A DNA stretch of 13,896 nt from Pyrobaculum sp. (lineage in GTDB: Archaea > Thermoproteota > Thermoprotei > Thermoproteales > Thermoproteaceae). Below are positions 1 through 13,896 of this stretch, piece after piece. The notes beneath the pieces are model-generated. The model saw nothing but the letters and a program-made list of their open reading frames with translations. It was not told where the DNA came from and searched no databases. The stretch is from positions 1 through 13,896 of the forward strand of contig WYEI01000006.1 of assembly GCA_009903905.1 (NCBI GenBank), given 5' to 3'. Each line of letters begins with the position of its first letter. The stretch's first letter is position 1. Both the position numbers and the translations under genes were made by a program.

Positions 1-164
1 AAGCCCACGACCTCCTCAGCCGTCTCAACGCCGCGAGGCTTGAGAAACTGCTTGATGAAGGTGGTCTTCCCGGCGCAGGGCGGCCCCACCACGACCACCT
101 TCGCCCCGCCCTCCGCCGCCTTCTCAGCCCTAAGCGCGTAGAGACGGCCGAAGAGCAAGACCAT
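1..164 (-). CDS. N-terminal part of a P-loop NTPase (runs off window)
   Basis: Only the first 54 codons are present; the gene continues past base 1. The translation begins MVLLFGRLYALRAEK and has a clear Walker A motif, VVVVGPPCAGKTTF, at about residues 23-36. The ATG at 164-162 is chosen because a TATA-like box is centred about 24 nt upstream, which fits a leaderless archaeal mRNA. The region around the P-loop resembles the N-terminus of the 1502-residue protein at 1126-5634 (FVLIGPPGSGKTFF), so the two may be paralogues in the same orientation. That link rests on a short stretch that includes the generic P-loop. The function is unknown beyond probable nucleotide binding. Confidence 0.72.
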   Translation of the reverse strand, partial: MVLLFGRLYALRAEKAAEGGAKVVVVGPPCAGKTTFIKQFLKPRGVETAEEVVG

Positions 165-183
165 AATAACTGCGTGGAGACTC

Positions 184-192
184 GATAAAAAG
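184..192 (-). promoter_or_regulatory. Probable TATA box of the 1-164 gene
   Basis: Read on the minus strand this is CTTTTTATC, centred about 24 nt before the ATG at 164. That is the usual spacing for leaderless archaeal transcription. No ribosome binding site is needed for this start. Confidence 0.5.
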
Positions 193-1005
193 CTTACGCT
201 AACGGTCGGTACCTGGTTGCTTACGGCTTCGACGTTTTTCGCTTCACTGGGGAGGGAGCTTTTAACAGAGGGCGAATGCGTCTTCAGAGACGTAGCTAAG
301 GTGTCTCGGCGCATCTCGCGCCGAAGGCATGTGGTGTCTCTACGCGCACGCCGCCCCAGCCCACGAGCAGAGGCCGGTGGAGAGAGGAGGAAAGCCTACA
401 AGCCGTCGGAAAGAGGCAGAAAACTCCTCAGCAGACTGAAAGGATGCGCCCTCGAGACTGGGGAGGGCTTCTACTGGAGACACCGCTTGGCGTATGCACA
501 GTGGAGCTTGTAGTTGCTACTATCCACGGCGTACATGCTGGTCGATACAGCCGCAAGAGGCGCAGAGTTGCTGAGGAGGATACAATGCGAGAGAGGGGGT
601 GCCTGGACCCGAGAAACGACTCTCAGCAGAAGCTAAAGCTTTTCGAAACCCACCCCAGGCGACTGCGACGCCGCAGGTGGCTAGAAGTAAAAGAATGGAG
701 CATAAGAAGATCCAAAACCTCCAAGAGGCCGAACCGATGAAGAATGCCACACCTACGCACGCTTTGAGACAACGGCCTGGCCCTACGGCCTATAAACTCC
801 CTCTTGAACCCCCACCCCCTACACGAACTCCCTCCCCACATATTGAAGAGGCCCCCAGTCTCTACAGACGTAGTGAACCACGTAATTTACAAATGCCTCC
901 ACCGTTCCGTAACTACTTTCCCTTGTTCCGGTGACCTCTGTTGGTTGTAGTTATGCCCCGCAACACAGCCAAGACATAGCCCTAACCACACCGAGCTAAT
1001 AGGCA
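193..1005. other. Intergenic, probably decayed sequence without a supported gene
   Basis: This stretch of about 800 bases has only short open frames (72-111 codons) on both strands, rich in Arg, Pro and Ser. None has a recognisable domain, consistent codon use or a convincing start. Around 840-955 a plus-strand frame reads LKRPPVSTDVVNHVIYKCL and then stops; it may be a gene scrap but I do not recognise it. I see no tRNA, CRISPR repeat or insertion-sequence end. It is best read as degraded accessory DNA between two minus-strand P-loop genes. Confidence 0.45.
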
Positions 1006-1128
1006 ATAAACACACTAACAACACTCATCGCCTTGGCGCTACCCCAACAAGCACCAGTCGACGCATTAACACTCAACATCTACGTCAACTCACCACCCAG
1101 CTACAACCTCGACTACACAGCCACGTCA
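1006..1128 (+). pseudogene. Possible 5' remnant of a secreted-protein gene
   Basis: On the plus strand, an open frame just after a TAG (1000-1002) reads INTLTTLIALALPQQAP and continues DALTLNIYVNSPPSYNLDYT. The first part looks like a short signal peptide with a hydrophobic core, and the rest like the start of an exported beta-rich domain. Codon choice is consistent along the stretch. There is no ATG, GTG or TTG at the expected start, where an ATA stands, and the frame runs into the antisense of the large gene's 3' end and soon stops. It may be the stump of a gene truncated when the neighbouring segment arrived. No family is recognised. Confidence 0.3.
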
Positions 1129-4100
1129 ACTAGACAACGAAGCAGACCAGAACCCCGAGGTTTTACTCTTCAGTGCTCGTGTGTAGAAAAATAGCTTTGC
1201 GATGGCGCGCCTAAACTCCTCATTATTCGGGTCACAACACGCCCTGTAAGCTTCAAGGAACAACCTCGCGGGTAGCTTGCCAGAATGGTTCATAGCCCCC
1301 ATGAGTGCGTGCGCCTTGGCTAGCTTCTCATTACCATTGATTAATGCATAAAGCATAAAGGTTAAATATACCGAGGAGCACCTTTTTCCATCTCCAGGCT
1401 TTATCGTACCATAAGTAGCCTTCAACGCGGGCAGATAATCAATATATAAATATCCGTGCCCAAAAGCCACTATTAACTCCCCAGGTTTAACAACAAGCCA
1501 GTCCCTAAGCTCGCTACTTAACTCAACTCTTGGGCTGAGTAGGGCGTTGAGCGTCAGCCTGGTCAGGATCGGCCTTGGCTCATATTTAAGTTGCCACTGC
1601 TCCTTAAGCAACTCCTCAATTCTCCTAATCTCCTCATCGCCACCCGTTAGGGCCAGGGACACGAGGTACCCGCCAAGTATATCTCTCAATATATTCTTCC
1701 ATAGAGTACCGTAGTCCGGAGACGCGGACATGAAACGCTCCGCATTGAGTGCCTCCTCGTACAGTTGCCTAAACCCATTAACCAACTTAACCAAGTCATC
1801 GCCAGCCAACGGGCTCTTAATTGCCTCGACACGCAATGCCCAGTCACGATTATCTAGGTAATTTAGATAGTCACCGATCACCTTACTCTCCTCAGCCGCC
1901 TCGTTAAATAGTCTCCCTGCCTCGTCGAGCTCGTCATTAACAAACTTATATTGCGCCAATGTGTGCTTAAGAATTGATGTCACCTCAAGGATTCCTCTCT
2001 TAGCCGCCTTCTCATCAGCCTCTGCGAGCCGGGACCTCACAAAACCCATAAGGTCCTCATCCCTTAATAGTTCCCGAACACTCCCCCTCAACTCGCTTAG
2101 CTCTCCAGCAACCTCCTTAGTCTTATTAACCACGTCGATACCCAGCTCGCTCTCTATAAGCATTCTTACACACTTATTCTTATTTTTACTATCTAGCGCT
2201 GATAGTGACGCATACGCGGCAATGATGCCTAGGTTGGGGCTCCACCTGTTTGTCTTATCCAGCAAATCAGCAAGCTCACTAATCATACGCTCAAACTTCG
2301 CACGGAAAGACGCAACCCTATGCTCAAACCAATAATCAACACAACGTTCTAGGCATTTATAGAGTGAGTGAGTTAAGGTGTTTATCACATCGACGAGGGT
2401 CCTAGCATGTCCCTTTACTTCAACCCCGTATTTGTTTAATATGTAATCAAGTTCATTAAGTATGTTCATCACTGTGTCCCAATCGTGACACGTACCCAGT
2501 CTGGTGAATTTATCCAGTGCACAGACTAGTACTTCAAGGTACCTCTGAGGCGCCTTATCACGCAACGGCGCCAAGGCAGTTAGTAATCGTATAATGTGAA
2601 GTGTCGATTGAACGTGTGACATGGCGAACGATGCTATGTGCAATGCCGCATCAGCATCACTGTGTCCAACGGGCCTGCCTGACTCAGCAGCTTTGGCTAT
2701 TATCGTGGCTAGCCCAAGACCATAATACGCCTCTTCATAATAAAATTCGCCCCTATTCTTGATGATGTTAAGAAGTCTCTTTATCTCGGCAATAGCCTCA
2801 TTGTACTTATCGATGAACACCCCAGCCAAGGCACATGCATGATTTCCGATTAGCCCCATCATTAATGATGGGATTTTATCACCAACGATTAGGTAGTTAT
2901 CAACGCCACATTCCTTCAAGGCATCGCCGAGAGACTCAACGATACTCGCATAATACTTGGCTAAGCTCATTCTTTGTGGGTTTTTATCACCATTGGCACC
3001 TAATCTGCTTAAGGCATCGCTGGGGGACTCAATGCCAGTCTTGCTCAAATTCATGGACATGAATGCAGACAAGTACTTACGCCTAGGCAATAGAGGATCT
3101 CCAGCCAGGGCGTGCCCAATGATGTACACGGCTCTCTTCCAGCACTCATTGCTGAAGACCTTTAATGCGCTTGTGAGTCTCTCGCCGTAGTTACTGGCGA
3201 AGTACTCGACGGCGCTGTCTACATCATTCACCTTCTCCGAGACCTTCCTCAATAACTCTATAACTCCTGTTGTTTTCCAAGGCTTCAACGCATCACCAAG
3301 TACTTTACACCCCTCACCCTTGCCCTCTATGCAGTCGAGCAACTTCCCAATCGCCTCTTCGATTAAGTCATGTAGCCAAATTGCCAACCAACTCCTCAAC
3401 TCTTCACCCTCGGCACCATAGAGAATCTTTACGCCCCCCGCCTCGCCAATCAACTCAACAATACCAGGCGTCAGTATTGGGTCGCCGGGCTTTACTGCAC
3501 TAATAAATGGACTCCTCAATACGTAGACCTTGACTAGGAACTTGCTTGTGTCGGGTATTGAGTCGTCGGACTCTACCGCACTAATAAATGGTCTCCTCAA
3601 TGCAAAGATCTCAACCAAGGCCTTGGCTGTGTCGGGGTTTTCGTGGACTTTGAATAGTCCGTTTATGTGTAGTATTATGAATGCCTCGGCTTTGCCCTTG
3701 GCGCTGTTTATTAACTCCTCGACCTTGCCAACACCGCAGTTGCTCCTCGCCAGTTCCTCGCCGATGAGTCTGGCTATAAGTGCGTGGCCAGAGTCGAACT
3801 TTGCTAATTCGCCTGCCAATTTGCTGAGCACGTCATCGCTTAGTGCGCACCCATTAGGCTTATCCTTGGTTTTTGAATACTCCCTAATCAACTCAGCCAG
3901 AAACTCGGTGTTGATGAGTACCTGCGAAACGTCAAGTCTATATCCCTCCAACGCATTTTTCACTTCCCCACTCAATGCGTTGTAGACATCGCTCGGTAGT
4001 ACGATGAGTGTGAACGGTTTTGATGCCTTGGAGCTTTTTGAGTTTACAAGGTTCTTTATTGTCCTCTCGATATTTGATTGTATGGGAGCCTCCGTGTCGA

Positions 4101-5634
4101 TGCCCACTTTCTCGTAGGCTTTAGTTGACACTGGGTCGTAGAGTATGAGTAACTTGCCAAAGTGCTCACTGAATTTCTCACCGTAGTTCTCTACGAACGT
4201 GGCAAGCTCTGAGTAATTCTTCAAATCAAGCACATCAACACGTGCAACTAGCCCAATATCGCTGTTCATGAACAACTCCCAAATCACGGCTGCGGCTAGC
4301 GTGGACTTACCAATACCCTTGGGTCCAACGACCACGACGAAGCCCTGCTTCAAAAGCCCATCCCTAACCTCGTTAACCAATTCGTTGAACTTACCTGCCC
4401 TAACAATGCTGTGGTACCCATCCTCAACCCTAATCCTCAACTCACCGTTTTCAACCTTAATGTTTGGGTAAGTCCTACCTTTCGCGAACTCGTTGACATC
4501 AGCCGTGACAATGCCCGCAGGCACTTCCAGCCTGAACAGCTCAATCTTCTTCTCAAGCTCCTTAATCCTCCACTCAATCTCATTAACCCTCCTCTTCAGC
4601 TCATCTATGCTTAAGCCCGTTATGTCCATTAACGCCTCTTTTGCCTCATCATAACTCATCCCCATCGCGTAGGCAACCCTATAGACCAACAGCTTGCCCA
4701 ACTCGTTAAACTCGCCATCCGACCTCCTCAACCTCTCAAGGCCCCTCTTCAACTCAATAATCCCCTTGATGTAGCCCTCCCCTTCCCTCTTAAATGCCAT
4801 ATACGTGAGCACTGAAATGAGGGCTAGGGCAGACGCGCCAATCAATGGGTCTACAACTAAACCACTAATCACATAACTCGCGTAGTTGATCACGAAGTTA
4901 CTCAGGTACTCCACAAATGACTCCTCCCACTCAAGCAAGTCATCGCTCAAACCCAGAATCTTGCGCAAAGTCTCATCTGCTTCGGAGTAGGCTTCAACCC
5001 AGCCTTTAAGCTCCTCCCTAGCCCCGTCCTCACCCTTTACCCTGATCAAGTCGATGACATCCTTGACCAGGCCTGGCGGTACGTACTCAGCCTTGAACCA
5101 CCTAATCCTTATTTTCTTATCATCAAAGACCTTCTTGATTAACTCCAACGCCCTACTGACATTCGCATCGAAGGTGCATGCGTTTGGCTCATCAACGCAT
5201 TTCCACGGTATGTAGTAAGCCCTGTGCGGCGAGTCCCCAATACTCCTCCTAGCCCCCTCAACAATATGCTTGGGGGCTCTATCACCAAGCACTTTCCTTA
5301 ACTCCTCATCATCAACCTCTGCAGTCTCCCTCAACTTCTCAATTAGAGGTATCATCCGCTTAAGATACTTCATAGCCTTCTTGGAAATCCCCGAGCCCTT
5401 CCTGGCTTCCTCACTCTCGATCTTGGCGGTTGTGGAGATGCCTAGCGTGTACTCATCGACGATGACACCTGTCCCCAGCCTGCCCTCTAGGTAATTCTCT
5501 TTGAAAAACGTCTTACCGCTCCCCGGCGGCCCAATGAGGACGAACCTACTGCAACCAGCGCACCTGCGAAGAACCTCGCTGACCTCACCCTCATTGAAGT
5601 CCCTAAACAAATCGACGCCAGAGCCACTCTGCAT
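1126..5634 (-). CDS. Giant two-P-loop, STAND-like membrane NTPase with helical C-terminal half (1502 aa)
   Basis: I do not recognise a named family; the architecture below is read from the sequence. Residues 28-42 contain a first Walker A (GPPGSGKT, 35-42) in an N-terminal domain of about 235 residues. Residues 241-281 are hydrophobic and could form a membrane hairpin. Residues 340-365 are charged and coiled-coil-like. A second NTPase core has Walker A GPKGIGKS (437-444), a Walker B-like LLILYDP (495-501), a sensor-like strand FTLIVLPSD (541-549) and a SGHALIARL helix (616-624) in the place where STAND ATPases have their GxP-type winged-helix motif. The rest, to 1502, is almost all alpha-helical with TPR-like stretches such as AGRLFNEAAEES. 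This matches a sensor-type STAND layout, and a role in defence or signalling is inference only. The ATG at 5634 follows a TATA box by 25 nt. The gene is AT-richer than the genes of the right half of the window, which suggests transfer. It has a 27-codon internal duplication at about residues 679-720. Confidence 0.85.
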   Translation of the reverse strand: MQSGSGVDLFRDFNEGEVSEVLRRCAGCSRFVLIGPPGSGKTFFKENYLEGRLGTGVIVDEYTLGISTTAKIESEEARKGSGISKKAMKYLKRMIPLIEKLRETAEVDDEELRKVLGDRAPKHIVEGARRSIGDSPHRAYYIPWKCVDEPNACTFDANVSRALELIKKVFDDKKIRIRWFKAEYVPPGLVKDVIDLIRVKGEDGAREELKGWVEAYSEADETLRKILGLSDDLLEWEESFVEYLSNFVINYASYVISGLVVDPLIGASALALISVLTYMAFKREGEGYIKGIIELKRGLERLRRSDGEFNELGKLLVYRVAYAMGMSYDEAKEALMDITGLSIDELKRRVNEIEWRIKELEKKIELFRLEVPAGIVTADVNEFAKGRTYPNIKVENGELRIRVEDGYHSIVRAGKFNELVNEVRDGLLKQGFVVVVGPKGIGKSTLAAAVIWELFMNSDIGLVARVDVLDLKNYSELATFVENYGEKFSEHFGKLLILYDPVSTKAYEKVGIDTEAPIQSNIERTIKNLVNSKSSKASKPFTLIVLPSDVYNALSGEVKNALEGYRLDVSQVLINTEFLAELIREYSKTKDKPNGCALSDDVLSKLAGELAKFDSGHALIARLIGEELARSNCGVGKVEELINSAKGKAEAFIILHINGLFKVHENPDTAKALVEIFALRRPFISAVESDDSIPDTSKFLVKVYVLRSPFISAVKPGDPILTPGIVELIGEAGGVKILYGAEGEELRSWLAIWLHDLIEEAIGKLLDCIEGKGEGCKVLGDALKPWKTTGVIELLRKVSEKVNDVDSAVEYFASNYGERLTSALKVFSNECWKRAVYIIGHALAGDPLLPRRKYLSAFMSMNLSKTGIESPSDALSRLGANGDKNPQRMSLAKYYASIVESLGDALKECGVDNYLIVGDKIPSLMMGLIGNHACALAGVFIDKYNEAIAEIKRLLNIIKNRGEFYYEEAYYGLGLATIIAKAAESGRPVGHSDADAALHIASFAMSHVQSTLHIIRLLTALAPLRDKAPQRYLEVLVCALDKFTRLGTCHDWDTVMNILNELDYILNKYGVEVKGHARTLVDVINTLTHSLYKCLERCVDYWFEHRVASFRAKFERMISELADLLDKTNRWSPNLGIIAAYASLSALDSKNKNKCVRMLIESELGIDVVNKTKEVAGELSELRGSVRELLRDEDLMGFVRSRLAEADEKAAKRGILEVTSILKHTLAQYKFVNDELDEAGRLFNEAAEESKVIGDYLNYLDNRDWALRVEAIKSPLAGDDLVKLVNGFRQLYEEALNAERFMSASPDYGTLWKNILRDILGGYLVSLALTGGDEEIRRIEELLKEQWQLKYEPRPILTRLTLNALLSPRVELSSELRDWLVVKPGELIVAFGHGYLYIDYLPALKATYGTIKPGDGKRCSSVYLTFMLYALINGNEKLAKAHALMGAMNHSGKLPARLFLEAYRACCDPNNEEFRRAIAKLFFYTRALKSKTSGFWSASLSS
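3473..3601 (-). repeat. In-frame 81-nt tandem duplication inside the giant NTPase gene
   Basis: Bases 3473-3520 and 3554-3601 are nearly identical 48-mers offset by 81 nt, exactly 27 codons. In protein terms, LRRPFISAVESDDSI and LRSPFISAVKPGDPI occur one after the other. The offset keeps the frame, so the protein stays open. The few differences are mixed silent and amino-acid-changing substitutions, so the duplication is not brand new. It lies just after the second NTPase core, at the transition to the helical C-terminal region. Confidence 0.8.
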
Positions 5635-5754: not shown

Positions 5755-5988
5755 GTGACAATAAAAGGTGTTTTTGATTTCATAGCGTTCATGCGTCTCG
5801 CGCGTGAATTACTCAATGACGTGTCCGTAGACGCGAACATGGACGTGACACACGCCGAATCCTACACACATAATCGACAAACACGAAGGCGCAAAAAGGT
5901 CGTAAACACACTCTACAAGGAAACAGCCGAGAAAATAAACGCAAAACAACCAAACAGGGCAAAGAAAATAGGGAGGCGCCGTCGGCGG
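5755..5988 (+). pseudogene. AT-rich gene remnant fused in frame to the HerA-like fragment
   Basis: This is the first part of an open frame that starts with GTG at 5755 and runs to 6414. It reads MTIKGVFDFIAFMRLARELL and, further on, KKVVNTLYKETAEKINAKQ; it is basic, AT-rich and different in composition from what follows 5985. The Lys/Arg-rich helix is vaguely like the middle of TnpB-type proteins of IS200/IS605 elements, but no catalytic motif is present and I would not assign it. The abrupt change to GC-rich sequence at about 5971-5990 suggests that two unrelated remnants were joined. It is probably not a functional protein. Confidence 0.35.
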
Positions 5989-6414
5989 TGGTGTATAGAA
6001 TGTTGTAGGCTGTTTAAGGCGGTGAATGAGGATCCGGCGAGAGGCGCCGCGCCTTCGCCCATGTCCATCGACGATGCCCATTTCTACTTACCGCGGGAGG
6101 GCGCCCGGGAGGACTTCAACAAGGAGGCGGCCGTGATAAACAAGCTCACCAGGCTGGGTAGGGTGAGGAGGATGGGCGTGGTCTTCGCCACCCACAGCCC
6201 CGCCGACCTCAACGACATGGTGATCCAGCTCACCAACACCAAAATCGCAATGAGGAGCGAGCCCAAGGTGCTTGAACGCGTAGACATGGCCGAATACGCC
6301 GGGGAGCTGGCCTACGCCCAAAGCGGAGCCGCCGTGGCCAAAAGCTTTATCTACAGGACGCATGCCGTGACCTTCAAAACCCTGCCGCCCCAGACGAGAC
6401 ACAGAGGAGACTAG
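5989..6414 (+). pseudogene. Decayed C-terminal fragment of a HerA/DUF87-type DNA-translocase ATPase
   Basis: From about residue 80 of the open frame the translation reads LFKAVNEDP, then SIDDAHFYLPREG, then INKLTRLGRVRRMGVVFATH and SPADLNDMVIQLTNTKIAMR. This is the Walker B region and the following core of archaeal HerA/VirB4-like (DUF87) ATPases. In that family the strand before DEAH is hydrophobic; here it is PSPMSIDDAH, which suggests decay. The Walker A half is missing and the upstream part is unrelated. Intact family members pump DNA and often pair with the nuclease NurA, which is not in the window. It is most likely a pseudogene left by a rearrangement. The frame ends at the TAG at 6412-6414. 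Confidence 0.7.
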
Positions 6415-6785
6415 CGACCCCCCGACGCTCTATGGCGTCTTCGGCGCCTTCGCCGGGGATCTGCCAGAGGGCGCCGGCTTTTGTACTCCTGGAGGGCCTC
6501 GGGCTCCGGCCGTCCGCCTCGGCCGCGGAGGCGAGGCGCATGAAACCACGGCTCTAGAGAGGGGCCCGCGTCCCTAGGCACCTCCGCCAGCAACCGAAGG
6601 CTCAGTGGTTCCCGCCCGCGCCGCGGCGCATCCGTCCTCCACCGAAGTCCCGCCGCAGTGGCGGGCGGAGGTGTTCTGCGGCTTCTTCGATTACGGCGAA
6701 GAAGAGGCCGAGACAGCATAGCGACACTGGCGAAGCCCAAAGCCCGGCGCACCCACCACTCCACAAGCCTCAATCCGCGATCAGC
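6415..6785. other. GC-rich non-coding or degraded stretch before the CRISPR leader
   Basis: These roughly 370 bases are very GC-rich. The open frames crossing them on the minus strand are Arg/Pro-rich and lack any domain signature, which is typical of shadow frames in GC-rich DNA. There is a short hairpin-like CCGCCGCAGTGGCGGGCGG near 6650-6668. I see no tRNA and no supported gene. Confidence 0.4.
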
Positions 6786-6976
6786 ACTGCGAAGAATGGC
6801 GCACCTTTCCCGCCAATTTTCTCGTCTTCGCCTTCGCGGCGCGCCGAAGAATGGCGTCTCGCTTTCACCCAACGCCGTGTGAAATGAATGTAAAGCGTGG
6901 TTCCAAGCCGACCGCCGAACCCACAAAAAACCAAAGAAAAACTTAAAAACCCACAACAACCGAATACACAAGCCCC
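6786..6976 (+). promoter_or_regulatory. CRISPR leader of array 1
   Basis: This sequence directly precedes the first repeat and is matched almost along its full length by the reverse complement of 8631-8818, which precedes array 2. Shared landmarks are two copies of CGAAGAATGGCG (6790-6801 and 6845-6856), a central block GTGTGAAATGAATGTAAAGCG, and an A-rich end with CTTAAAAA at about 6942-6949. The last is a TATA-like box about 30 nt before the first repeat and would drive rightward pre-crRNA transcription. Conservation between the two leaders fades upstream of about 6786, which sets the boundary. Confidence 0.85.
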
Positions 6977-7406
6977 AGAATCTCAAGAAGGGTTGAAACA
7001 GCTCGTGCACCGTCAGCCGATAGAGCACCAGGTCTTCCGGCCGACCAGAATCTCAAGAAGGGTTGAAACAGCTCGTGCACCGTCAGCCGATAGAGCACCA
7101 GGTCTTCCGGCCGACCAGAATCTCAAGAAGGGTTGAAACGCGGGCTTGTCCAGGGATATCCAGTTGCGGCGGTTCGGGCCAGAATCTCAAGAAGGGTTGA
7201 AACTCGGTTATTTCGCAGTCCGGCCGGGCGGCTTCCTGCACTGAACCAGAATCTCAAGAAGGGTTGAAACAACATGCTTGAACCGTCTGGCATAGACCGC
7301 TACAGGGGTCACCTTAGAATCTCAAGAAGGGTTGAAACACCCTAAACCAGTAGCGCACTTCGGACGTCGTGTAGTGGATGCCTAGAATCTCGAGAAGGGT
7401 TGAAAC
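6977..7406 (+). CRISPR. CRISPR array 1: 7 repeats, 6 spacers, transcribed rightward
   Basis: The 23-nt repeat begins AGAATCTCAA and ends GGGTTGAAAC. Copies start at 6977, 7047, 7117, 7181, 7248, 7316 and 7384. Spacers are 47, 47, 41, 44, 45 and 45 nt. Spacers 1 and 2, next to the leader, are identical, so the first 70-bp unit is duplicated. The last repeat has one change (CTCGAG for CTCAAG), as is usual for the leader-distal end. The 3' end GTTGAAAC fits the 8-nt crRNA handle known for archaeal type I-A and III systems with short repeats. Orientation is set by the leader, the variant end repeat and the handle. No cas gene is present, so the array must be served in trans. Spacer targets cannot be named from sequence alone. 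Confidence 0.97.
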
Positions 7407-7641
7407 CGTTGATGGAGTGAGACAACGTTAATTACGGCTCTCTGCTTAGCCGCCGGGGGCGAACTCGGCGTGGGCTGTCTCGCCGGCTCTGGTGGAGGGG
7501 GCTTGCTGGCGATTCTCACCTAGGGAGCGCTCGGCTTAGCCGCCCGCCGCCGTCGTTCACGTCTTAAAGCTGGCGCATCTGCATGAGCTTCTCCGCCAGA
7601 GGCCGCGGCGCTGGCCAAGAGCTCAACAACGACATCGGGCT
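7407..7641. other. Spacer region downstream of array 1
   Basis: This GC-rich stretch lies between the last repeat of array 1 and the 3' end of the interrupted gene. A minus-strand frame reads VEPDVVVELLASAAASGGEA but has no usable start and dissolves into Arg-rich sequence, so I do not call it a gene. No terminator is evident. Confidence 0.3.
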
Positions 7642-8145
7642 CTACACCGGCGCCTCTACTCCCAGCCTCTTGAGCTCTTTTCTCAGTGCCCTATGGGCCG
7701 TTGGCCATATCCAAGCCAGCGCAGACGCGGCGTCCAATATCGCCGCTTCGGCCTCCCAGACGCGGATCCTCCACCGGGGGCTGTCTCTACAGCGTCTGGC
7801 CACATACAGCGCGGCCGCCAGCGCCCTTGCCAACGCAACGGCAACCCTCCTCACGTCCACGGGGCGCGGGATCAGCCTTTTGAGCCTGGCGGCTAGGGTG
7901 AGGGGGTCTGTGAGGTTTCCCAAAAAGTACGTGTCGCTTGGGCGCCACCCCAGCTTCAGGTAAAGCCTACCGCCGAGAAGCCAGAGGTAGCCCGAAAGCG
8001 GCCCAACCCGGACCTTCCCCACGTAGAGATACATGGCCTACGCCGGCAGTTTTTCTAAGCGGCCGTCTTGTGGAGTAAAGCCTCCGCCCAAAGCGACGGC
8101 TTTCCCCGCCCGCATCTCCCGGACGAGCTTCAACTCCCTAAACAT
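7642..8145 (-). pseudogene. Unknown gene (about 167 aa) interrupted by an in-frame TAG
   Basis: An ATG at 8145 opens MFRELKLVREMRAGKAVALG and continues to KLPA, where a TAG (8040-8038) occurs. One codon later, in the same frame, an ATG at 8034 opens a 130-residue frame beginning MYLYVGKVRVGPLSGYLWLL and ending LKRLGVEAPV. Codon use is similar on both sides of the TAG, and a TATA-like box sits about 25 nt before 8145, not before 8034. The simplest reading is one gene of about 167 codons with a nonsense mutation. Alternatives are re-initiation at 8034, giving a shorter functional protein, or a sequencing error. The second half is helical with an Ala/Arg-rich helix pair. I do not recognise the family, and it shows no Cas signature although it lies between two CRISPR arrays. 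Confidence 0.55.
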
Positions 8146-8406
8146 AATCGCCGAACCGCACAGTAATAAAAAATTATGTATAGATGAATGTAAAGAGCGG
8201 TTGCGAAAACTGAGACGGCTGACGGCGGCTGGGCGGCGGGGCTGGCCACATAAACATGTCAGAAACCATTTACAAATATAAAAACGTGTAACGGCGAACT
8301 AGACGCCCAAGCAGAAGACAGCAGGCGCCGCGCCTACGAGACTCCACCAACGCCGCTTACGGCGTTATCCTTTGCCACTCTACGTACCGCAAGCTAATCG
8401 ACGGTG
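8146..8406. other. Intergenic region between the interrupted gene and array 2
   Basis: It holds the promoter of the interrupted gene and AT-rich patches such as TTTACAAATATAAAAACG near 8268. Bases 8184-8202 (ATGAATGTAAAGAGCGGTT) resemble the central block of the CRISPR leaders, but no repeat follows, so any link is speculative. No gene is supported. Confidence 0.4.
8164..8176 (-). promoter_or_regulatory. Probable TATA box of the interrupted gene
   Basis: The minus-strand reading TAATTTTTTATTA is centred about 25 nt before the ATG at 8145. The distance is typical for leaderless transcription and is the main reason to place the original start at 8145. Confidence 0.45.
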
Positions 8407-8630
8407 GATATGTAGCCTCGTGAGATTCTGACTGACATGCTAGAGGTGCTAGATCGCCTCCTTCCCGCCGCCAATGTTTCAACCCTTCTTGAGATTCTAG
8501 AGGTTCGGCAGTACATCCGTAGATTCCTCCTCAACCTGGAGTTTCAACCCTTCTTGAGATTCTAGCCAGAGGATCTGGTGGTGTACCAAATATCGGTACG
8601 CCACCTTGTTTCAACCCTTCTTGAGATTCT
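8407..8630 (-). CRISPR. CRISPR array 2: 3 repeats plus a degenerate end repeat, transcribed leftward
   Basis: Read on the plus strand, the repeat GTTTCAACCC...GAGATTCT occurs at 8476-8498, 8541-8563 and 8608-8630, the exact reverse complement of the array 1 repeat. Spacers are 42 nt (8499-8540) and 44 nt (8564-8607). A fourth, eroded copy at about 8407-8429 keeps CCTCGTGAGATTCT; it lies 46 nt from the next repeat, a normal spacer length here, and is at the leader-distal end where decay is expected. The leader at 8631-8818 sets the leftward direction. Spacer 8564-8607 contains a near-palindrome, GGTGTACC...CGGTACGCC. No cas genes are nearby. Confidence 0.93.
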
Positions 8631-8818
8631 GGGGCTTGTGTGTTTGGTTCTTGTGGGTTTTTAAGTTTTTCTTCAGTTTTTGTAGGTTCGGCGGTCGGTT
8701 TGAGGCTTCGCTTTACATTCATTTCACACGGCGTTGGGTAAAATCGAGACGCCATTCTTCGGCGCCCCGCAAAAACAAAAACGGAAAAAAAGCGGAAAGG
8801 CGCGCCATTCTTCGCAGT
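8631..8818 (-). promoter_or_regulatory. CRISPR leader of array 2
   Basis: The reverse complement is homologous to the leader of array 1. It shows the same two CGAAGAATGGCG motifs (complement at 8803-8814 and 8750-8761), the same ACCCAACGCCGTGTGAAATG block, and CTTAAAAA (complement at 8658-8665) about 30 nt before the first repeat as a probable TATA box. The stretch between the two motifs differs, being A/T-run-rich here and mixed in leader 1, so the conserved blocks are likely to be the functional ones. Confidence 0.83.
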
Positions 8819-9042
8819 TGGCGGTTTTTGTAGGGCGTAGGCGGCGGGTGCAGTCTGCGGAGGTCCGACCGGGGGGAGGGGAGTGCAACGCGGCTTGGTG
8901 GATACGGGGCCGGGGTGGCGGGTTTACGTGGCGTCTCGGCCTGTGTGTATCTAGGAGTGGGCGTAGGCATGGCCTCGGTGGCTTGTTCTGTCTGCACGGC
9001 GGCTGTGTGTTTTCTGGGGTTGGTGGGGCTGAGGGGCCCTAA
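8819..9042. other. Intergenic region upstream of rpl5
   Basis: GC-rich sequence between the leader of array 2 and the rpl5 promoter. Open frames on both strands here lack any domain and are low-complexity. One of them is only an upstream extension of rpl5, which the TATA box argues against. Nothing else is supported. Confidence 0.45.
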
Positions 9043-9052
9043 AATTTATATA
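9043..9052 (+). promoter_or_regulatory. TATA box of the rpl5 operon
   Basis: AATTTATATA is a strong archaeal TATA element centred about 25 nt before the ATG at 9074. It indicates a leaderless start for the operon and rules out the longer upstream reading frame. Confidence 0.7.
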
Positions 9053-9073
9053 GGCTGTGGAGTGTGGGTGGCT

Positions 9074-9613
9074 ATGCCGAGTTGGAGGGAGCTTGTGCTT
9101 GTTAGGGATCACCCCATGCGGAGGGTGTTCATCGAGAAGGTGGTGGTGAATATAGGCGTCGGTACGGGGGGTGAGAGGCTTGAGAAGGCGGCTGAGTTGC
9201 TGAAGGAGCTTACGGGGGCTGAGCCTTCGAGGAGGAGGGCTAAGCGGTCGATTAAGGATTTCGGCATTAGGAAGGGTGAGCCGATAGGGGTCGCTGTCAC
9301 GCTTAGGAGGGATAAGGCTGTGGAGTTTTTGATGAAGGCGTTGCAGGCGGTTAACAACAGGGTTAAGCAGTCGAGCTTCGACGATAGGGGGAATGTGTGT
9401 TTCGGCATTAAGGAGCACATCACGATTCCGGGGGTTAAGTACGACCCGGCTGTGGGGATCTGGGGGATGGATGTCTGTGTGAAGCTTGCAAAGCCTGGCC
9501 TCAGGGTGCAGCGGAGGAGGAGGAAGAGGAGCAAGGTGGGCAAGGGGCAGCTGGTCACCAAGCAGGAGGCGGTGGAGTTTTTCACCAAGGTGCTTGGGGT
9601 GCAGGTTGATTGA
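9074..9613 (+). CDS. rpl5: 50S ribosomal protein uL5 (L5)
   Basis: The 179-residue product is archaeal ribosomal protein uL5, which binds 5S rRNA and sits in the central protuberance of the large subunit. The signature EKVVVNIGVGTGGERLEKA is at residues 21-39. The family's C-terminal part follows with IKEHITIPGVKYDPAVGIWG, MDVCVKLAKPG and a basic RRRRKRSK segment. The length fits archaeal L5. The open frame extends upstream to 8915, but the ATG at 9074 (MPSWRELVLV) is chosen because the TATA box lies about 25 nt before it and the extension is unlike ribosomal protein. No other ribosomal protein gene is present; it heads an operon with a phosphoesterase and an RNA methyltransferase, and its stop overlaps the next start by one base. 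Confidence 0.96.
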   Translation: MPSWRELVLVRDHPMRRVFIEKVVVNIGVGTGGERLEKAAELLKELTGAEPSRRRAKRSIKDFGIRKGEPIGVAVTLRRDKAVEFLMKALQAVNNRVKQSSFDDRGNVCFGIKEHITIPGVKYDPAVGIWGMDVCVKLAKPGLRVQRRRRKRSKVGKGQLVTKQEAVEFFTKVLGVQVD

Positions 9614-10116
9614 TGCGTGTAGGGGTTGTCTCTGACAGCCACGATAACGTTTCTGCGATTAGGAGAGCCGGGGAGGAGCTGAGGAGGCGTGGGGTCGGGC
9701 TTGTTCTCCACGCGGGGGACTGGGTGTCGCCTTTTTCCGCCCGCTTCCTCCGGGAGGCCTTGGGCGAGGGGGTGCGGATTGTCGGCGTCTGGGGTAACAA
9801 CGAGGGGGAGAGGCCCTACTTCCTCGAGGTGGCGAGGAAATTCGGCGTGGAGGTGGCGGGGGAGGCGGCTGAGCTTGAGGTAGCGGGGAGGAGGGTGGCG
9901 GTTTACCACGGCACGTCCCCGATCCTCTTGAGGGCTTTGGTGGAGTCTGGTCTCTACGACGTGGTGGTGTATGGCCACACGCATCAGGCCGTTGTGGAGA
10001 GGCGCGGCGGGACGCTGGTGGTTAACCCCGGCGAGCTCTGTGGTTGTTTGACCGGCAGATCCTCCTACGCGGTGGTGGACCTGGATAAGCTGGAGGTGGA
10101 TCTCCTCTTCCTGTGA
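9613..10116 (+). CDS. YfcE/MJ0936-type metallophosphoesterase
   Basis: A 167-residue, single-domain calcineurin-like phosphoesterase, probably cytoplasmic with a two-metal centre. Visible metal ligands are D8 and H10 in SDSHDN, D36 in HAGDWV, N62 in GNNE, H99 in VYHG, and H122/H124 in YGHTHQ; the set is complete, so the enzyme should be active. Relatives hydrolyse phosphodiesters such as bis-p-nitrophenyl phosphate in vitro, but their physiological substrate is not settled. The ATG at 9613 overlaps the rpl5 stop (TGATG), and GGGGTG about 12 nt upstream may serve as a ribosome binding site. A TTG three bases earlier is possible but less likely. It is cotranscribed with rpl5 and the methyltransferase, suggesting a link to RNA or nucleotide metabolism. 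Confidence 0.9.
   Translation: MRVGVVSDSHDNVSAIRRAGEELRRRGVGLVLHAGDWVSPFSARFLREALGEGVRIVGVWGNNEGERPYFLEVARKFGVEVAGEAAELEVAGRRVAVYHGTSPILLRALVESGLYDVVVYGHTHQAVVERRGGTLVVNPGELCGCLTGRSSYAVVDLDKLEVDLLFL
10092..10098 (+). promoter_or_regulatory. Shine-Dalgarno that decides a GTG start
   Basis: GGAGGTG inside the end of the phosphoesterase gene lies 14 nt before the GTG at 10113 and complements the archaeal 16S 3' end. It supports internal initiation at the overlapping GTGA junction. Confidence 0.5.
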
Positions 10117-11360
10117 CTTGGACGCCTGATGAGCTGGTTGCCTTCGTCGGCAGGGTGCTCTATGAGGTGGTGGAGCGGGGGCTTACCTTGGACTTCGCCT
10201 TTCAGAGGGTGAAGAGGGGGTGGCGGCGGCTGGAGAGCTTTAAGGTGTTTTACGACGTGTCTTTTGACGCGGTTAAGCACTACTTCCTTCTGCGGCATCT
10301 GGCGGCGAGGTTGCTGGGCTCGTCGGGGGCGAAGGCCGTGGCGCGGGCGTGGTTTATATACCGGGCAGATGCCGTCTTGTACAACAGAGATATGGTGGCG
10401 CGGTATAGGAAAAGGCTTCTGAAGAGGGCTAGGGGTAGCCCGGAGGAGGCGTTGCGCTCCATCGAGGAGCTGAGGGGGGATCCGGTGCGGTACCTATCGA
10501 CGAAGTACAGCTACCACCCCTCCATCGTGGAGGCCCTCCTTTCTAACCTCCCGCGGGAGGAGGTGGAGAGGATACTGGAGGCGGGCAACGCCACGTGGGT
10601 TTGGCTGAGGATAAACACCTTGAGGGCTGATGTGGATAAGGCGTTGAGGATGCTGGAGGGGGAGGCGGAGGTGGAGCCGCACCCCGCCATACCGTTTGCC
10701 GTCCTCCTCAGAAGCTCTAAGAGGCCTGTGCAGTATCTGACCGCGGTGAGGGAGTTCGTGGCGGTGCCGCAGGACCTCGCCTCGATCTACGCCGTCCTTT
10801 CGTTGCGCCCCAGCCCGGGGGACAGGGTCGTGGACCTCGCCGCGGCGCCTGGCATGAAGACGAGCCTCATTGCCCAGCTTGCCGAGGGCAGGGCCAAGAT
10901 AGTGGCTGTGGAGCTTTCCACGAAGCGGGTGTACAGGATGAAGCGCCTGCTGAAGCTTCTCGGCGCTGCGGATCAGGTGGAGGTGGTGCGGGCGGACTCG
11001 AGGAGGCTGAGGACTAGGCGCTTCGATAAGGCTCTTCTGGACGCGCCTTGTACGTCAAGCGGCGCCTTCACCAAGGAGCCTGCCACGAAGATATACCCAA
11101 GGCTGGAGGAGGCGGCGCGCTACAGCAGGTTGCAGAGGGAGCTTCTCGCCAACGCCTTGACGCTGGCAGACGAGGTGGTCTACGCCGTCTGTAGCATCCT
11201 GCCCCAGGAGGGGGAGGAGGTGGTGGCCGCGGTGGGCGGCCGGGCGGAGAAGCCCCACCCCGACCTCGCCCCGTCTTACCGAGGCGGCGTCGGCGGCAGG
11301 ACGTTTCCCCACATACATAGAAGCGAGGCGTTTTTCATCTCGCGTGTCACCCCTTCTTGA
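10113..11360 (+). CDS. RsmB/NSUN-family RNA 5-methylcytosine methyltransferase
   Basis: A 415-residue SAM-dependent enzyme of the NOL1/NOP2/Sun family, methylating C5 of cytosine in tRNA or rRNA. Residues 1-140 are helical and look like the NusB-like RNA-binding domain of bacterial RsmB. Motif I, VVDLAAAPGMKTSLIA, is at 239-254, an acidic SAM-binding strand IVAVELS follows, motif IV is LLDAPCTSSGAF (308-319, Cys313) and motif VI is YAVCSILPQEGEEV (357-370, Cys360). In this family the motif VI cysteine is the nucleophile and the motif IV cysteine helps release the product; both are present. The start is GTG, overlapping the previous stop (GTGA). The 3' end overlaps the convergent UPF0210 gene by 14 bp. 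Whether the target is rRNA or tRNA cannot be told from sequence alone. Confidence 0.93.
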   Translation: MTWTPDELVAFVGRVLYEVVERGLTLDFAFQRVKRGWRRLESFKVFYDVSFDAVKHYFLLRHLAARLLGSSGAKAVARAWFIYRADAVLYNRDMVARYRKRLLKRARGSPEEALRSIEELRGDPVRYLSTKYSYHPSIVEALLSNLPREEVERILEAGNATWVWLRINTLRADVDKALRMLEGEAEVEPHPAIPFAVLLRSSKRPVQYLTAVREFVAVPQDLASIYAVLSLRPSPGDRVVDLAAAPGMKTSLIAQLAEGRAKIVAVELSTKRVYRMKRLLKLLGAADQVEVVRADSRRLRTRRFDKALLDAPCTSSGAFTKEPATKIYPRLEEAARYSRLQRELLANALTLADEVVYAVCSILPQEGEEVVAAVGGRAEKPHPDLAPSYRGGVGGRTFPHIHRSEAFFISRVTPS

Positions 11361-12693
11361 GCCTCTCCACGCCGGGGGGCGCGGTGCCGCCTCTGGAGAC
11401 CAGCGGGATTTTGGAGTATCTTGAAACGTCCATCACGGCCACCGAGCCGTAGAGGCCGCCGAGGTCGTATACGTCGCCGGGCTTCGCGCCGGGGACCGGC
11501 ACCAGCCTCACCCCCAGCGGCTTGTCTAGATGGACGGCGAGCGCCATTACGTCTGCCACAAGCGCCGCCACCGCCTCCGGGCTCGCGTCGCCCGGTATCC
11601 CCACCATGTCTATGCCTGTGTTGCAGACGGCGGCCATGGCCTTGAGGGTGTCGAGGGTGAGGGCGCCTTCGGCCGCGGCTTTTGCCATGGCGGCGTCTTC
11701 GCTGACTGGTATGAAGGCGCCGCTGAGGCCTCCGATGGTGGAGGCGGCCATGGCGCCGCCCTTCTTGACGGCGTCTGTGAAGAGGGCTAGGGCGAAGACG
11801 GAGCCGGGCGCCCCCACCCTCGGCAGGCCGATGGCCTCGAGGACGGCGGCCACGGAGTCTCCCACCTTTGGCGAAGGCGCCACGCTCAGGTCCACCGCGC
11901 CGAAGGGCACCCCCAGCTCCTTGGCCACCTCCCTCCCCACCAGCTCGCCCAGCCTTGTGATCTTGAAGGCGGCCCGCTTGATGGCGTCGTGGAGAGTCCT
12001 CACGTCTGCGTCAGGCATGTTCCTCACCACGGCCTCGATGACCCCGGGGCCGCTTACTGCGATGTTTACCACGGCGTCTGGGAGGCCGAGGCCGTGGTAT
12101 GCGCCGGGCATGAACGGGACGTCTTCTGGCAGGTTGGCGGTGACGGCGAAGCGCGCCGCCGCGTGGGGCCTCATGGCGAGGATGATCTCGGCGGCCTTCT
12201 TAACTGCGTCTAGGTTGATGCCTGTCATGGTGGAGGCCGTGTTTAGGAAGCCTGCCAACCTGGCGGTGGTGTTCAACGCCTCCGGCAGCGCCTCCATGAG
12301 GGCCTTGTCGCCTCTGGAGGCGCCCATGTGTACAAACGCGGAGAAGCCGCCCACCATGTCGACGCCGTATTTCTCGGCGAGTTTGTCGAGGTGCCGCGCC
12401 ACCTCAACCGCGGCGGCCCCGTCGCCTATGGGCTCGAGCAAGATGGAGACGGGAGACACGGCCAGCCTCACGGTCACGATCCTCACCCCCAGCCGCGACG
12501 CCACCCGCTCCACCGCCGGCCTAAGCCGCTTTAGATACGGCTCAAGCACCTCCTCAAGCGCGGGCAACAGATCCCCCGGCGTCGGCCTGGCGGCGGGGAG
12601 GGTGTTTACGCTCAGCGTGACGGCTCTGATGTCTAGCTCCCTAAAGAGAAGCATCTCCAGGACTTCGCCGATTTCCCCGGGCTCAAATCTCAT
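11347..12693 (-). CDS. UPF0210 / DUF711 family protein
   Basis: A 448-residue protein of the UPF0210 (DUF711) family, whose biochemical role is not established. Family hallmarks seen are ITVRLAVSP-like IVTVRLAVSPVS (72-83), NTASTMTGINLD (151-162), DLSVAPSPKVGDSVAAVLEA (268-287), the glycine-rich KKGGAMAASTIGGLSGAFIP (310-329), NTGIDMVGIPGD (358-369) and the C-terminal SRGGTAPP. The length is normal for the family. The frame is open upstream to 12993, but that part is only the shadow of the ACT gene, and the ATG at 12693 overlaps the ACT stop by 4 nt (ATGA), so the two are translationally coupled. The same ACT-then-UPF0210 order is found in bacteria such as streptococci, suggesting a conserved partnership, perhaps with the ACT protein sensing a small ligand. 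Confidence 0.92.
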   Translation of the reverse strand: MRFEPGEIGEVLEMLLFRELDIRAVTLSVNTLPAARPTPGDLLPALEEVLEPYLKRLRPAVERVASRLGVRIVTVRLAVSPVSILLEPIGDGAAAVEVARHLDKLAEKYGVDMVGGFSAFVHMGASRGDKALMEALPEALNTTARLAGFLNTASTMTGINLDAVKKAAEIILAMRPHAAARFAVTANLPEDVPFMPGAYHGLGLPDAVVNIAVSGPGVIEAVVRNMPDADVRTLHDAIKRAAFKITRLGELVGREVAKELGVPFGAVDLSVAPSPKVGDSVAAVLEAIGLPRVGAPGSVFALALFTDAVKKGGAMAASTIGGLSGAFIPVSEDAAMAKAAAEGALTLDTLKAMAAVCNTGIDMVGIPGDASPEAVAALVADVMALAVHLDKPLGVRLVPVPGAKPGDVYDLGGLYGSVAVMDVSRYSKIPLVSRGGTAPPGVERLKKG

Positions 12694-12962
12694 ATCCTCT
12701 GCATGTACCGAAATACGTCTATGTGGTAGACGCCTACCATAACTCCCAGCCTCCGGCCCTCCTCCTCCAGCTCCTTCCTGAGCTGGGAGATGTCTACGTC
12801 GGCTTTTGAGATGTCCACGACCATGATCATGGAGAAGATATCCCGCACCACGGTCTGCGAGATGTCTACGATGTTGACGTTGTGGCGGGCTAAAACGTTC
12901 GATATGCCAGCCACGATGCCCACCCTGTCGGCCCCCAGCACAGCTACGACGGCCATCTCCAT
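12690..12962 (-). CDS. ACT-domain protein, UPF0237 family
   Basis: A 90-residue protein that is a single ACT domain, a small-ligand (often amino-acid) sensing fold. The strand-helix signature VVAVLGADRVGIVAGISNV is at residues 5-23, followed by NIVDISQTVVRDIFSMIMVV (30-49), with a second helix to about residue 73 and a final strand. It belongs with the UPF0237 proteins usually encoded next to UPF0210. A longer frame back to 13100 exists, but its N-terminus is unstructured; the ATG at 12962 has a TATA box 24 nt upstream and fits the family length. A second ATG two codons later is possible. Its ligand is unknown. Confidence 0.92.
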   Translation of the reverse strand: MEMAVVAVLGADRVGIVAGISNVLARHNVNIVDISQTVVRDIFSMIMVVDISKADVDISQLRKELEEEGRRLGVMVGVYHIDVFRYMQRI

Positions 12963-12981
12963 AGGCGGAGGTCCAGACTGG

Positions 12982-12990
12982 CTTATAAAA
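12982..12990 (-). promoter_or_regulatory. TATA box of the ACT-UPF0210 operon
   Basis: The minus-strand reading TTTTATAAG is centred about 24 nt before the ATG at 12962, the distance expected of a leaderless mRNA, and supports that start. Confidence 0.65.
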
Positions 12991-13099
12991 CATGACCTAG
13001 ACGGAGTACAGGTGGAGGAGCCGGCCTGGGCGCTGGAAACGGCGCGGCATCCGCCGTCTAGGGGCCCGGCCGATTGGCCGTCGGCGGCGCTGTGGCACA

Positions 13100-13113
13100 A
13101 TAATTATAATTAT
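13100..13113. promoter_or_regulatory. Perfect 14-bp AT palindrome in a divergent promoter region
   Basis: ATAATTATAATTAT equals its own reverse complement. It lies about 110 bp upstream of the ACT TATA box and about 45 bp upstream of the citrate synthase TATA box, surrounded by GC-rich DNA. It could be an operator for a dimeric regulator such as an Lrp-type protein, or an extra TATA-like element. Low-complexity AT sequence is often palindromic by chance, so the call is tentative. Confidence 0.35.
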
Positions 13114-13150
13114 CGACAGCTTCATTGCTTTGATGGACGTTGTGCCGATG

Positions 13151-13161
13151 TAATATATATA
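13151..13161 (+). promoter_or_regulatory. TATA box of the citrate synthase gene
   Basis: TAATATATATA is centred about 27 nt before the ATG at 13184. It supports that start and leaderless transcription. Confidence 0.65.
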
Positions 13162-13183
13162 TGGGGCGTTTAACACTTCCGCA

Positions 13184-13896
13184 ATGTATTTCCCCGGTCT
13201 TGAGGGCGTTGTGGTGAAAGAAACCAAGATTTGTCACATAGATCTTGAAAATTCCAAGATCTACTACCGGGGGTACGACCTGGAGGAGCTCGCCGAGAGG
13301 TCCACGTTTGAGGAGACCGCGTTTCTCCTCTGGCACGGCAACCTGCCTCGGAGGTCGGAGCTTGAGGAGTTCAGGAGGAGCCTCGCCCAGCACCGCATCC
13401 CGCCGAGCCACGTCAAGGACCTCCTGCTGAGGGCACCCCGCGCCGCGGAGCCCATAGACGTGTTGAGGACGGCGGTTTCGGCGATGGCGTTTGGGGAGGA
13501 TCTGAGGGATAAGTCGCCGCAGGTGGAGCTGTCGAGGGGGCTGAAGATCACGGGGGCCATGCCCTACATAGTTGCCGCGTTTGATAGGTCTAGGAGGGGG
13601 CTGGGGCCGGCGGAGCCCGCGGAGGCCGGAAGCCACGCCGAGTTCTTCCTATGGGCGTTGCGGGGCGAGAGGCCCACCCCGCGGGAGGTGAGGGCTCTCG
13701 ACGTCATGTTGATAATATACGCGGAGCACTCCATGAACAACAGCGCCTTCACGGCCGTTACCGTGGCCTCCACACTGGCCGACATGTACGCCGCCGTCAC
13801 GGCGGCGATAGCCAGCCTCAAGGGGCCGTTGCACGGCGGCGCCAACGTAGACGCCTCGCTGATGCTGGAGGAGGTGGGTGAGGCGAAAAACGTGGA
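13184..13896 (+). CDS. gltA: Citrate synthase, N-terminal part (runs off window)
   Basis: The first 237 residues of a citrate synthase, which condenses acetyl-CoA with oxaloacetate to citrate in the TCA cycle. The translation begins MYFPGLEGVVVKETKICHID. Family signatures are YYRGYDLEELAERSTFEETA (27-46) followed by FLLWHGNLP, the active-site histidine in YAEHSMNNSAFT (H182), and the second in GPLHGGAN (H217). The catalytic aspartate lies beyond the window. A short N-terminus without a targeting extension is typical of archaeal enzymes. It could instead be, or double as, a 2-methylcitrate synthase, which cannot be separated on this part. The ATG at 13184 follows a TATA box at the right distance. 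Confidence 0.95.
   Translation, partial: MYFPGLEGVVVKETKICHIDLENSKIYYRGYDLEELAERSTFEETAFLLWHGNLPRRSELEEFRRSLAQHRIPPSHVKDLLLRAPRAAEPIDVLRTAVSAMAFGEDLRDKSPQVELSRGLKITGAMPYIVAAFDRSRRGLGPAEPAEAGSHAEFFLWALRGERPTPREVRALDVMLIIYAEHSMNNSAFTAVTVASTLADMYAAVTAAIASLKGPLHGGANVDASLMLEEVGEAKNV

Follow-up and report, generated by a model that had tools for sequence, protein, structure and literature searches.

A candidate Avs5-like STAND immune sensor with a second, N-terminal P-loop in Pyrobaculum and related archaea

Domain organisation of the gene product

The window studied here, a stretch of 13,896 nucleotides from the hot-spring archaeon Pyrobaculum sp. (GenBank assembly GCA_009903905.1, contig WYEI01000006.1), carries on its minus strand a STAND-like gene for a protein of 1502 amino acids (1126..5634), which was identified as a single uninterrupted reading frame of 1502 codons in the open reading frame (ORF) listing of the window and by its homologues. 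An earlier note, made from the sequence alone, had described its product as a possible defence or signalling NTPase with two P-loops. AlphaFold2 models of residues 1–690 (predicted local distance difference test (pLDDT) 81, predicted template modelling score (pTM) 0.61) and 640–1502 (pLDDT 81, pTM 0.77) gave the domain order alpha/beta P-loop domain, hydrophobic hairpin, long helix, NTPase core with helical extension, and superhelix. The two Walker A motifs, which the earlier note had placed about 400 residues apart, were confirmed at residues 35–42 and 437–445, a spacing of 402 residues.

The N-terminal P-loop domain (residues 1–230, end estimated; 4945..5634, minus strand, as are all parts of this gene) was defined by model confidence, with pLDDT means over 10 residues of 72–94 except at residues 1–10 and 71–80, by a below-cut-off match to the Pfam family AAA_33 at residues 32–51, and by conservation of its Walker A motif GPPGSGKT (5509..5532). 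It is followed by a predicted membrane segment (residues 238–284; 4783..4923), modelled as two helices (238–257 and 267–284) and coinciding with the Kyte–Doolittle maximum of the protein (2.06 over 19 residues at residue 255, elsewhere at most 1.60). The claimed hydrophobic hairpin between the P-loops was thereby borne out, and on the model the protein is probably membrane-linked. For the coiled coil claimed in the same region, a long helix was indeed modelled (residues 343–368; 4531..4608), which is a probable coiled coil by the model and by matches of designed coiled coils to these positions that were weak (E 0.085 and 0.098).

The NTPase core with its helical extension (residues 366–670; 3625..4539) narrowly passed the curated cut-off of the Pfam family nSTAND3 (PF20720; 29.7 bits against 27.2), and searches with Foldseek and VIA-align placed it, in agreement with the earlier assignment, among AAA+/STAND folds including Apaf-1 and plant NLRs. 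It contains the Walker A motif GPKGIGKST (residues 437–445; 4300..4326) and a putative Walker B-like motif LLILYD (residues 495–500; 4135..4152); G437, G440, G442–L446 and D500 were invariant across 62 divergent sequences. The remainder forms a C-terminal helical superhelix (residues 700–1502; 1129..3537), labelled a putative sensor on the basis of the model, its resemblance to TPR folds and its substitution rates. Residues 640–1502 were modelled as entirely helical, with zero strands of three or more residues, matching the all-helical region of more than 800 residues described before, and superstructure-forming C-terminal repeats, a mark of the STAND superfamily, are therefore predicted. TPR folds headed the fold-search lists, with LGN as one example of a TPR protein similar to the C-terminus; no C-terminal Foldseek hit fell below E 0.001, and helical repeats readily yield such scores. 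A search by sequence for relatives of solved structure returned nothing beyond P-loop-sized, coiled-coil or short matches.

Conservation was assessed in 131 database relatives of at least 1300 amino acids, after removal of 24 shorter proteins from 155. The STAND Walker A motif was kept in all 131, the N-terminal GPPxSGK in 115, and a segment of Kyte–Doolittle value 1.6 or more ahead of the STAND core in 127. Since both motifs and the hydrophobic segment are kept across these relatives, the two-P-loop anatomy is not due to chance. The first P-loop is degenerate in some subfamilies (APPGSSR, GPGSSRL) and absent at two loci (L037, L038). Two relatives carry an N-terminal SIR2_2 domain (PF13289), followed by a degenerate P-loop in P0132 (GPRLSGLT at 323) and an intact one in L041 (GHSSTGKT at 284), from which it follows that SIR2 was added ahead of the P-loop and membrane parts. 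Judged from these sequences, the front-end P-loop is a genuine module whose NTP-binding lysine is not kept everywhere. The P-loop and the hydrophobic hairpin form a conserved front end at what the earlier note called the effector position, and are a possible effector.

Distribution, surroundings and variation of the family

A protein database search with the window protein yielded 305 clusters, the best 120 of which all had at least 50% identity. Matches were found in 18 of 45 genomes of Thermoproteales, part of them fragments or weak, and a wider search matched 95 of 398 genomes, mostly by P-loop only. Named relatives occur in Vulcanisaeta moutnovskia, Pyrobaculum ferrireducens, Sulfolobus sp. 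S-194 and Saccharolobus islandicus, and the last three have full-length open family genes, so the question of function is testable by Sulfolobales genetics. A search of 72,556 plasmid records matched one, the Sulfolobus conjugative plasmid pNOB8 (26% identity). In pNOB8 (L057:14007-17710) and in V. moutnovskia (L039:6642-10924) the gene is encoded by two overlapping ORFs with different break points. A further relative of high similarity (L088, 1984 bits, in two ORFs), with a Cmr1 gene some 4 kb away, comes from a genome of 3.03 Mb outside the 45-genome order set (G398), a possible case of transfer between orders. No match at E 1e-5 was obtained among 50,697 phage records, and a pattern scan of IMG/VR, which detects close relatives only, matched three stretches, none of them a relative; a phage or viral gene was rejected on these searches. 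As a control for diversity, alanyl-tRNA synthetase (query from V. moutnovskia, G019) gave 12 clusters at 60% and 54 at 50% identity among its best 120. The greater diversity of the STAND family in the database is suggestive only, and unusual diversity is unproven, since only listed clusters were compared and the queries came from different genera.

Near the relatives, genes were found for restriction–modification (type IIG and type II methyltransferases), HmaA/HmaB-like proteins, BrxL and DpdJ, as well as DndC-like, Cmr1, CARF and NurA genes. PADLOC models at E ≤ 1e-12 matched at least 12 different proteins among 60 neighbour ORFs, taken from 76 of at least 250 amino acids within 10 kb of STAND copies at 14 loci; the figure is a lower bound, counting families that are necessarily different proteins among the 25 of 67 foreground families listed. 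Related Hma-type genes account for three of the twelve. As a control, 20 stretches picked at random in the same ten genomes supplied 159 ORFs, and a scan of 60 of these matched three PADLOC kinds with one member each (HerA, Csx1, Cas12f/TnpB-like); a local check of these control ORFs found one HerA-like and one TnpB-like ORF (Fisher p 0.012 for 12 against 3, 0.001 for 16 against 3). Among the 60 neighbour ORFs, two gave matches to pAgo models (alignment A5).

Conjugation genes are a second recurrent neighbour. A STAND copy lies within 10 kb of 9 of 23 VirB4-like loci (search rows of at least 50 bits with pieces merged, weaker rows excluded), against an expected 0.45 that ignores contig ends and shared ancestry. 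The 34 STAND copies counted include the fragments G004:C15 and G034:C123, and exclude short pieces in G014 (C25/C88), G017, G021, G022 and G226. At L039, ParA-like, VirD4/TrwB-like and VirB11-like ATPases stand alongside the STAND gene, and a 630-amino-acid DUF87 protein of pNOB8 clusters with VirB4/HerA-like element ATPases. Relatives thus occur in contexts beyond the housekeeping ones that would have spoken against the earlier proposal, many in defence islands and some beside VirB4-like genes. A housekeeping gene was rejected on the patchy spread and the neighbourhood. One genome (G018) has a conjugation-like gene run in triplicate (L042, L043, L044), each time with the STAND gene in pieces and other split ORFs, which reflect decay or sequencing error.

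Rates of change were compared with the sister strain Pyrobaculum sp. WP30. Flanking genes gave synonymous rates (Ks) of 0.11–0.37 and nonsynonymous rates (Ka) of 0.002–0.034, and windows along the STAND gene gave Ks of 0.16–0.52 and Ka of 0.04–0.29, so that amino-acid change in the STAND gene is about ten times that of its flanks at similar or modestly higher Ks. The Ka/Ks ratio was 0.52–0.61 at the N-terminus, 0.23–0.39 in windows spanning residues 201 to 850 (0.23–0.35 in the NTPase core, which is therefore constrained), 0.70–0.94 over 801–1250, so that change is fastest in part of the putative sensor, and 0.27–0.67 beyond.

Segment exchange was apparent as well. In alignment block 600–750, six relatives from three other genomes fell into two classes with 50–55% identity between and 74–86% within them. 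This split was backed by 24 of 33 two-state columns in the block and by 8 of 22 in the preceding block, and by no other block strongly. The assemblies used included G030 and G043, on one long contig each, and the alignments make localised exchange among relatives in genome assemblies clear. Stronger mosaics were seen among 108 database proteins of at least 1400 amino acids plus the query (5886 pairs), with N- and C-terminal identities of 100% and 61% for P0019/P0084 and of 76% and 99.9% for P0024/P0034; these count as weak evidence, since metagenomic assembly can produce chimeras in families of this kind.

A possible immune role and its alternatives

The anatomy and the likely field proposed in the earlier note, a STAND-like protein of defence or signalling, are supported at the level of sequence by the nSTAND3 match and the defence-island relatives. 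Our preferred reading, with a probability of about 0.68, is that Thermoproteales and some Sulfolobales possess in this family an Avs5-like STAND immune sensor, which would have been carried along by defence islands and conjugative elements and diversified by segment exchange. The C-terminal TPR-like superhelix would bind an invader-derived molecule, and ligand binding would free the nSTAND3 NTPase for ATP binding and oligomerisation. This would bring together the N-terminal P-loop modules, which the hydrophobic hairpin would anchor to the cytoplasmic membrane, and the clustered assembly would kill or arrest the cell, membrane damage by the hairpins being the best guess for the output. In the rare relatives with an added SIR2 domain, the latter would use up nicotinamide adenine dinucleotide. 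Exchange of segments between alleles, together with fast amino-acid change, would vary the sensor.

Of the known systems found, Avs5 appears from domain content to be the closest. According to PMC12931631, Avs5 combines SIR2 (PF13289), nSTAND3 (PF20720) and C-terminal repeats. By profile and model, the nSTAND3 core and the TPR-like repeats at the C-terminus are common to Avs5 and the window protein, two relatives (P0132 and L041) also share the SIR2_2 N-terminus, and the family shares the variable sensor region. In contrast to Avs5, the window protein lacks SIR2 among the 25 of 27 Pfam families listed for it and has an extra P-loop domain, a hydrophobic hairpin and a coiled-coil-like helix before the NTPase, while the family is archaeal and its genes often lie in islands or next to those for conjugation.

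Plant and animal NLRs carry LRR or WD40 sensors. Compared with these NB-ARC proteins (Apaf-1, NRC2, NRC4), the window protein has a TPR-like sensor and a P-loop plus membrane front end, and its identity to NRC2 is 15% across the aligned part. KAP family NTPases similarly join a P-loop domain to membrane helices in a conflict setting. Their helices are inserted inside the P-loop domain, whereas those of the window protein follow it and precede a second NTPase, and KAP is absent from the listed Pfam families. The Ted/Ced systems and pNOB8-type conjugative plasmids have VirB4/HerA-like and ParA-like genes in common with the neighbourhoods of some STAND copies, but the window protein is by domain content not a VirB2, VirB4 or VirB6 component, and it is absent near most VirB4-like loci. 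The surroundings of Ted contain VirB4, VirB6, VirB2, ParA, HerA and Rad50 genes in the excerpted text of PMC9905601, which mentions no STAND protein around Ted. A description of the family was not found in the titles and abstract openings of open-licence PubMed Central papers.

Several observations weigh against an immune sensor of this type. The nSTAND3 match covers profile positions 7–61 of 155 only, and AAA+ machines rank above most NLRs in the matches to residues 366–670, where Clp, proteasome and Cdc6 ATPases do as well as or better than Apaf-1 and the NLRs, so the fold search alone is no proof of STAND. The PADLOC Avs models, in a library whose coverage of Avs5 is unchecked, matched neither the window protein (E ≤ 1) nor P0132, L041, P0123 or L053, and L092 matched Avs2 only (E 0.023). 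Given these results and the lack of SIR2, the protein is described here as working like an Avs or NLR protein and is not filed as Avs5. With regard to selection, comparison with the more distant G014 copy gave a Ka/Ks peak of 0.65 (residues 1101–1250) and otherwise 0.18–0.55, and Ka/Ks exceeded 1 in no window, so positive selection is suggested and not demonstrated. No VirB4-like gene lies within 10 kb of 25 of the 34 copies, and L055, L090, L096 and L097 are among the loci where no defence gene was recognised by eye. Copies are commonly broken or reduced to fragments (G018, G004, G017, G021, G022), and some are probably dead.

The proximity to conjugation genes raises the question of whether the protein is an accessory of archaeal conjugative elements, serving as an exclusion, transfer-control or partition factor and not as an antiviral sensor. 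The 9 of 23 VirB4-like loci with a nearby copy, the copies lying inside runs of VirB4/HerA-like and other element genes (L039, L042–L044), the three copies of P. ferrireducens (G030), all within 6 kb of a VirB4-like gene, and the copy on pNOB8 would all fit such a function. However, no copy lies on the same contig within 10 kb of 14 of the 23 VirB4-like loci (including four of five in G036; one may be cut by a contig end), which makes the STAND gene look like cargo and not machinery. Furthermore, only one of the plasmid records carries it, several copies stand beside defence genes with no VirB4-like gene nearby, and the SIR2 fusions and fast-changing sensor suit conflict better, making an accessory function rather unlikely.

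Outside immunity, the protein could be a STAND regulator or an NTPase of stress signalling that responds to a cellular ligand at the membrane, resembling MalT and AfsR in its logic, and the conserved P-loop and membrane front end could then be its signalling output. Regulators, too, make use of STAND cores joined to helical repeats. Such a function is improbable for a protein with no DNA-binding domain among its listed Pfam families, a patchy spread through the order (18 of 45 genomes) and a Ka far exceeding that of the flanking genes. Finally, the frequency of fragments and split copies, the gap of about 97 amino acids in the C-terminus of the window protein relative to the WP30 copy, its altered final 20 or so residues and the lack of any Ka/Ks above 1 could be taken as signs of a largely decaying repeat family that rides along on mobile elements, under relaxed and not diversifying selection. 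Against this, 1502 and 1599 codons remain open in the two strains, the NTPase core is constrained (Ka/Ks 0.23–0.35), Walker A and D500 are invariant in 62 divergent sequences and the rate differs by domain, and mere decay is thus very improbable.

Most of what is known about STAND immune sensors comes from bacteria, plants and animals. If the immune-sensor reading is true, hyperthermophilic archaea gain an NLR-like system with an unusual double P-loop and membrane front end and a segment-exchanging sensor, which sometimes travels with conjugation genes. A bolder and rather doubtful extension is that these archaea might hold a population-wide, combinatorial NLR-type repertoire, in which a conserved P-loop/membrane/NTPase chassis would be joined to recombining internal and C-terminal segments and carried between genera and orders by conjugative elements and defence islands; this would be the archaeal counterpart of the recombining NLR repertoires of plants or fungi.

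The surrounding locus and its counterpart in strain WP30

Along the STAND-like gene the guanine-plus-cytosine content was 0.46–0.51, compared with 0.54–0.69 over 6001 to 13500, in line with the earlier remark that its composition differs from that of the right half. An in-frame tandem duplication of 81 bp (3474..3635, minus strand) lies C-terminal of the NTPase, where residues 676–700 correspond to gaps in 75% of relatives. The nearby CRISPR locus and decayed DNA reported before were both recovered. Diverging from the STAND gene is a C-terminal remnant of a HerA helicase gene (6052..6357, plus strand; PADLOC PDLC01055, 6e-22, profile positions 416–517 of 532), which is fused to an unrelated stretch within 5755–6414 (plus strand). 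A CRISPR array of seven repeats (6975..7410, plus strand) marks the island border and a second, of three repeats, has the opposite orientation (8475..8637, minus strand). Leader-like stretches of 135 nucleotides by the arrays (6817–6951 and 8655–8789) are 81% complementary to each other, and the first two repeat-spacer units of the longer array (6975–7114) are an exact duplicate. Comparison of the spacers with the family loci retrieved gave self matches and one 14-base match only. No Rfam family was matched in the window.

Over 9876–13896 the window and Pyrobaculum sp. WP30 share 95% identity, and the RsmB-like proteins are 97% identical. WP30 carries the same STAND gene with the HerA remnant adjoining it, broken in both strains, and between these and the CRISPR arrays it has about 18.5 kb that are missing from the window. 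This segment, in which most gene names are a reading of the sequences, contains a second STAND paralogue, DndC-like, nuclease-like, helicase-like, AAA-like and unknown genes, and a DNA methyltransferase. At the other side of the STAND gene, a partial ORF running off the start of the window (3–314, minus strand) has its own P-loop, GPPCAGKTT, and could be what is left of another P-loop gene; the DNA at 21–209 matches WP30 at 75%.
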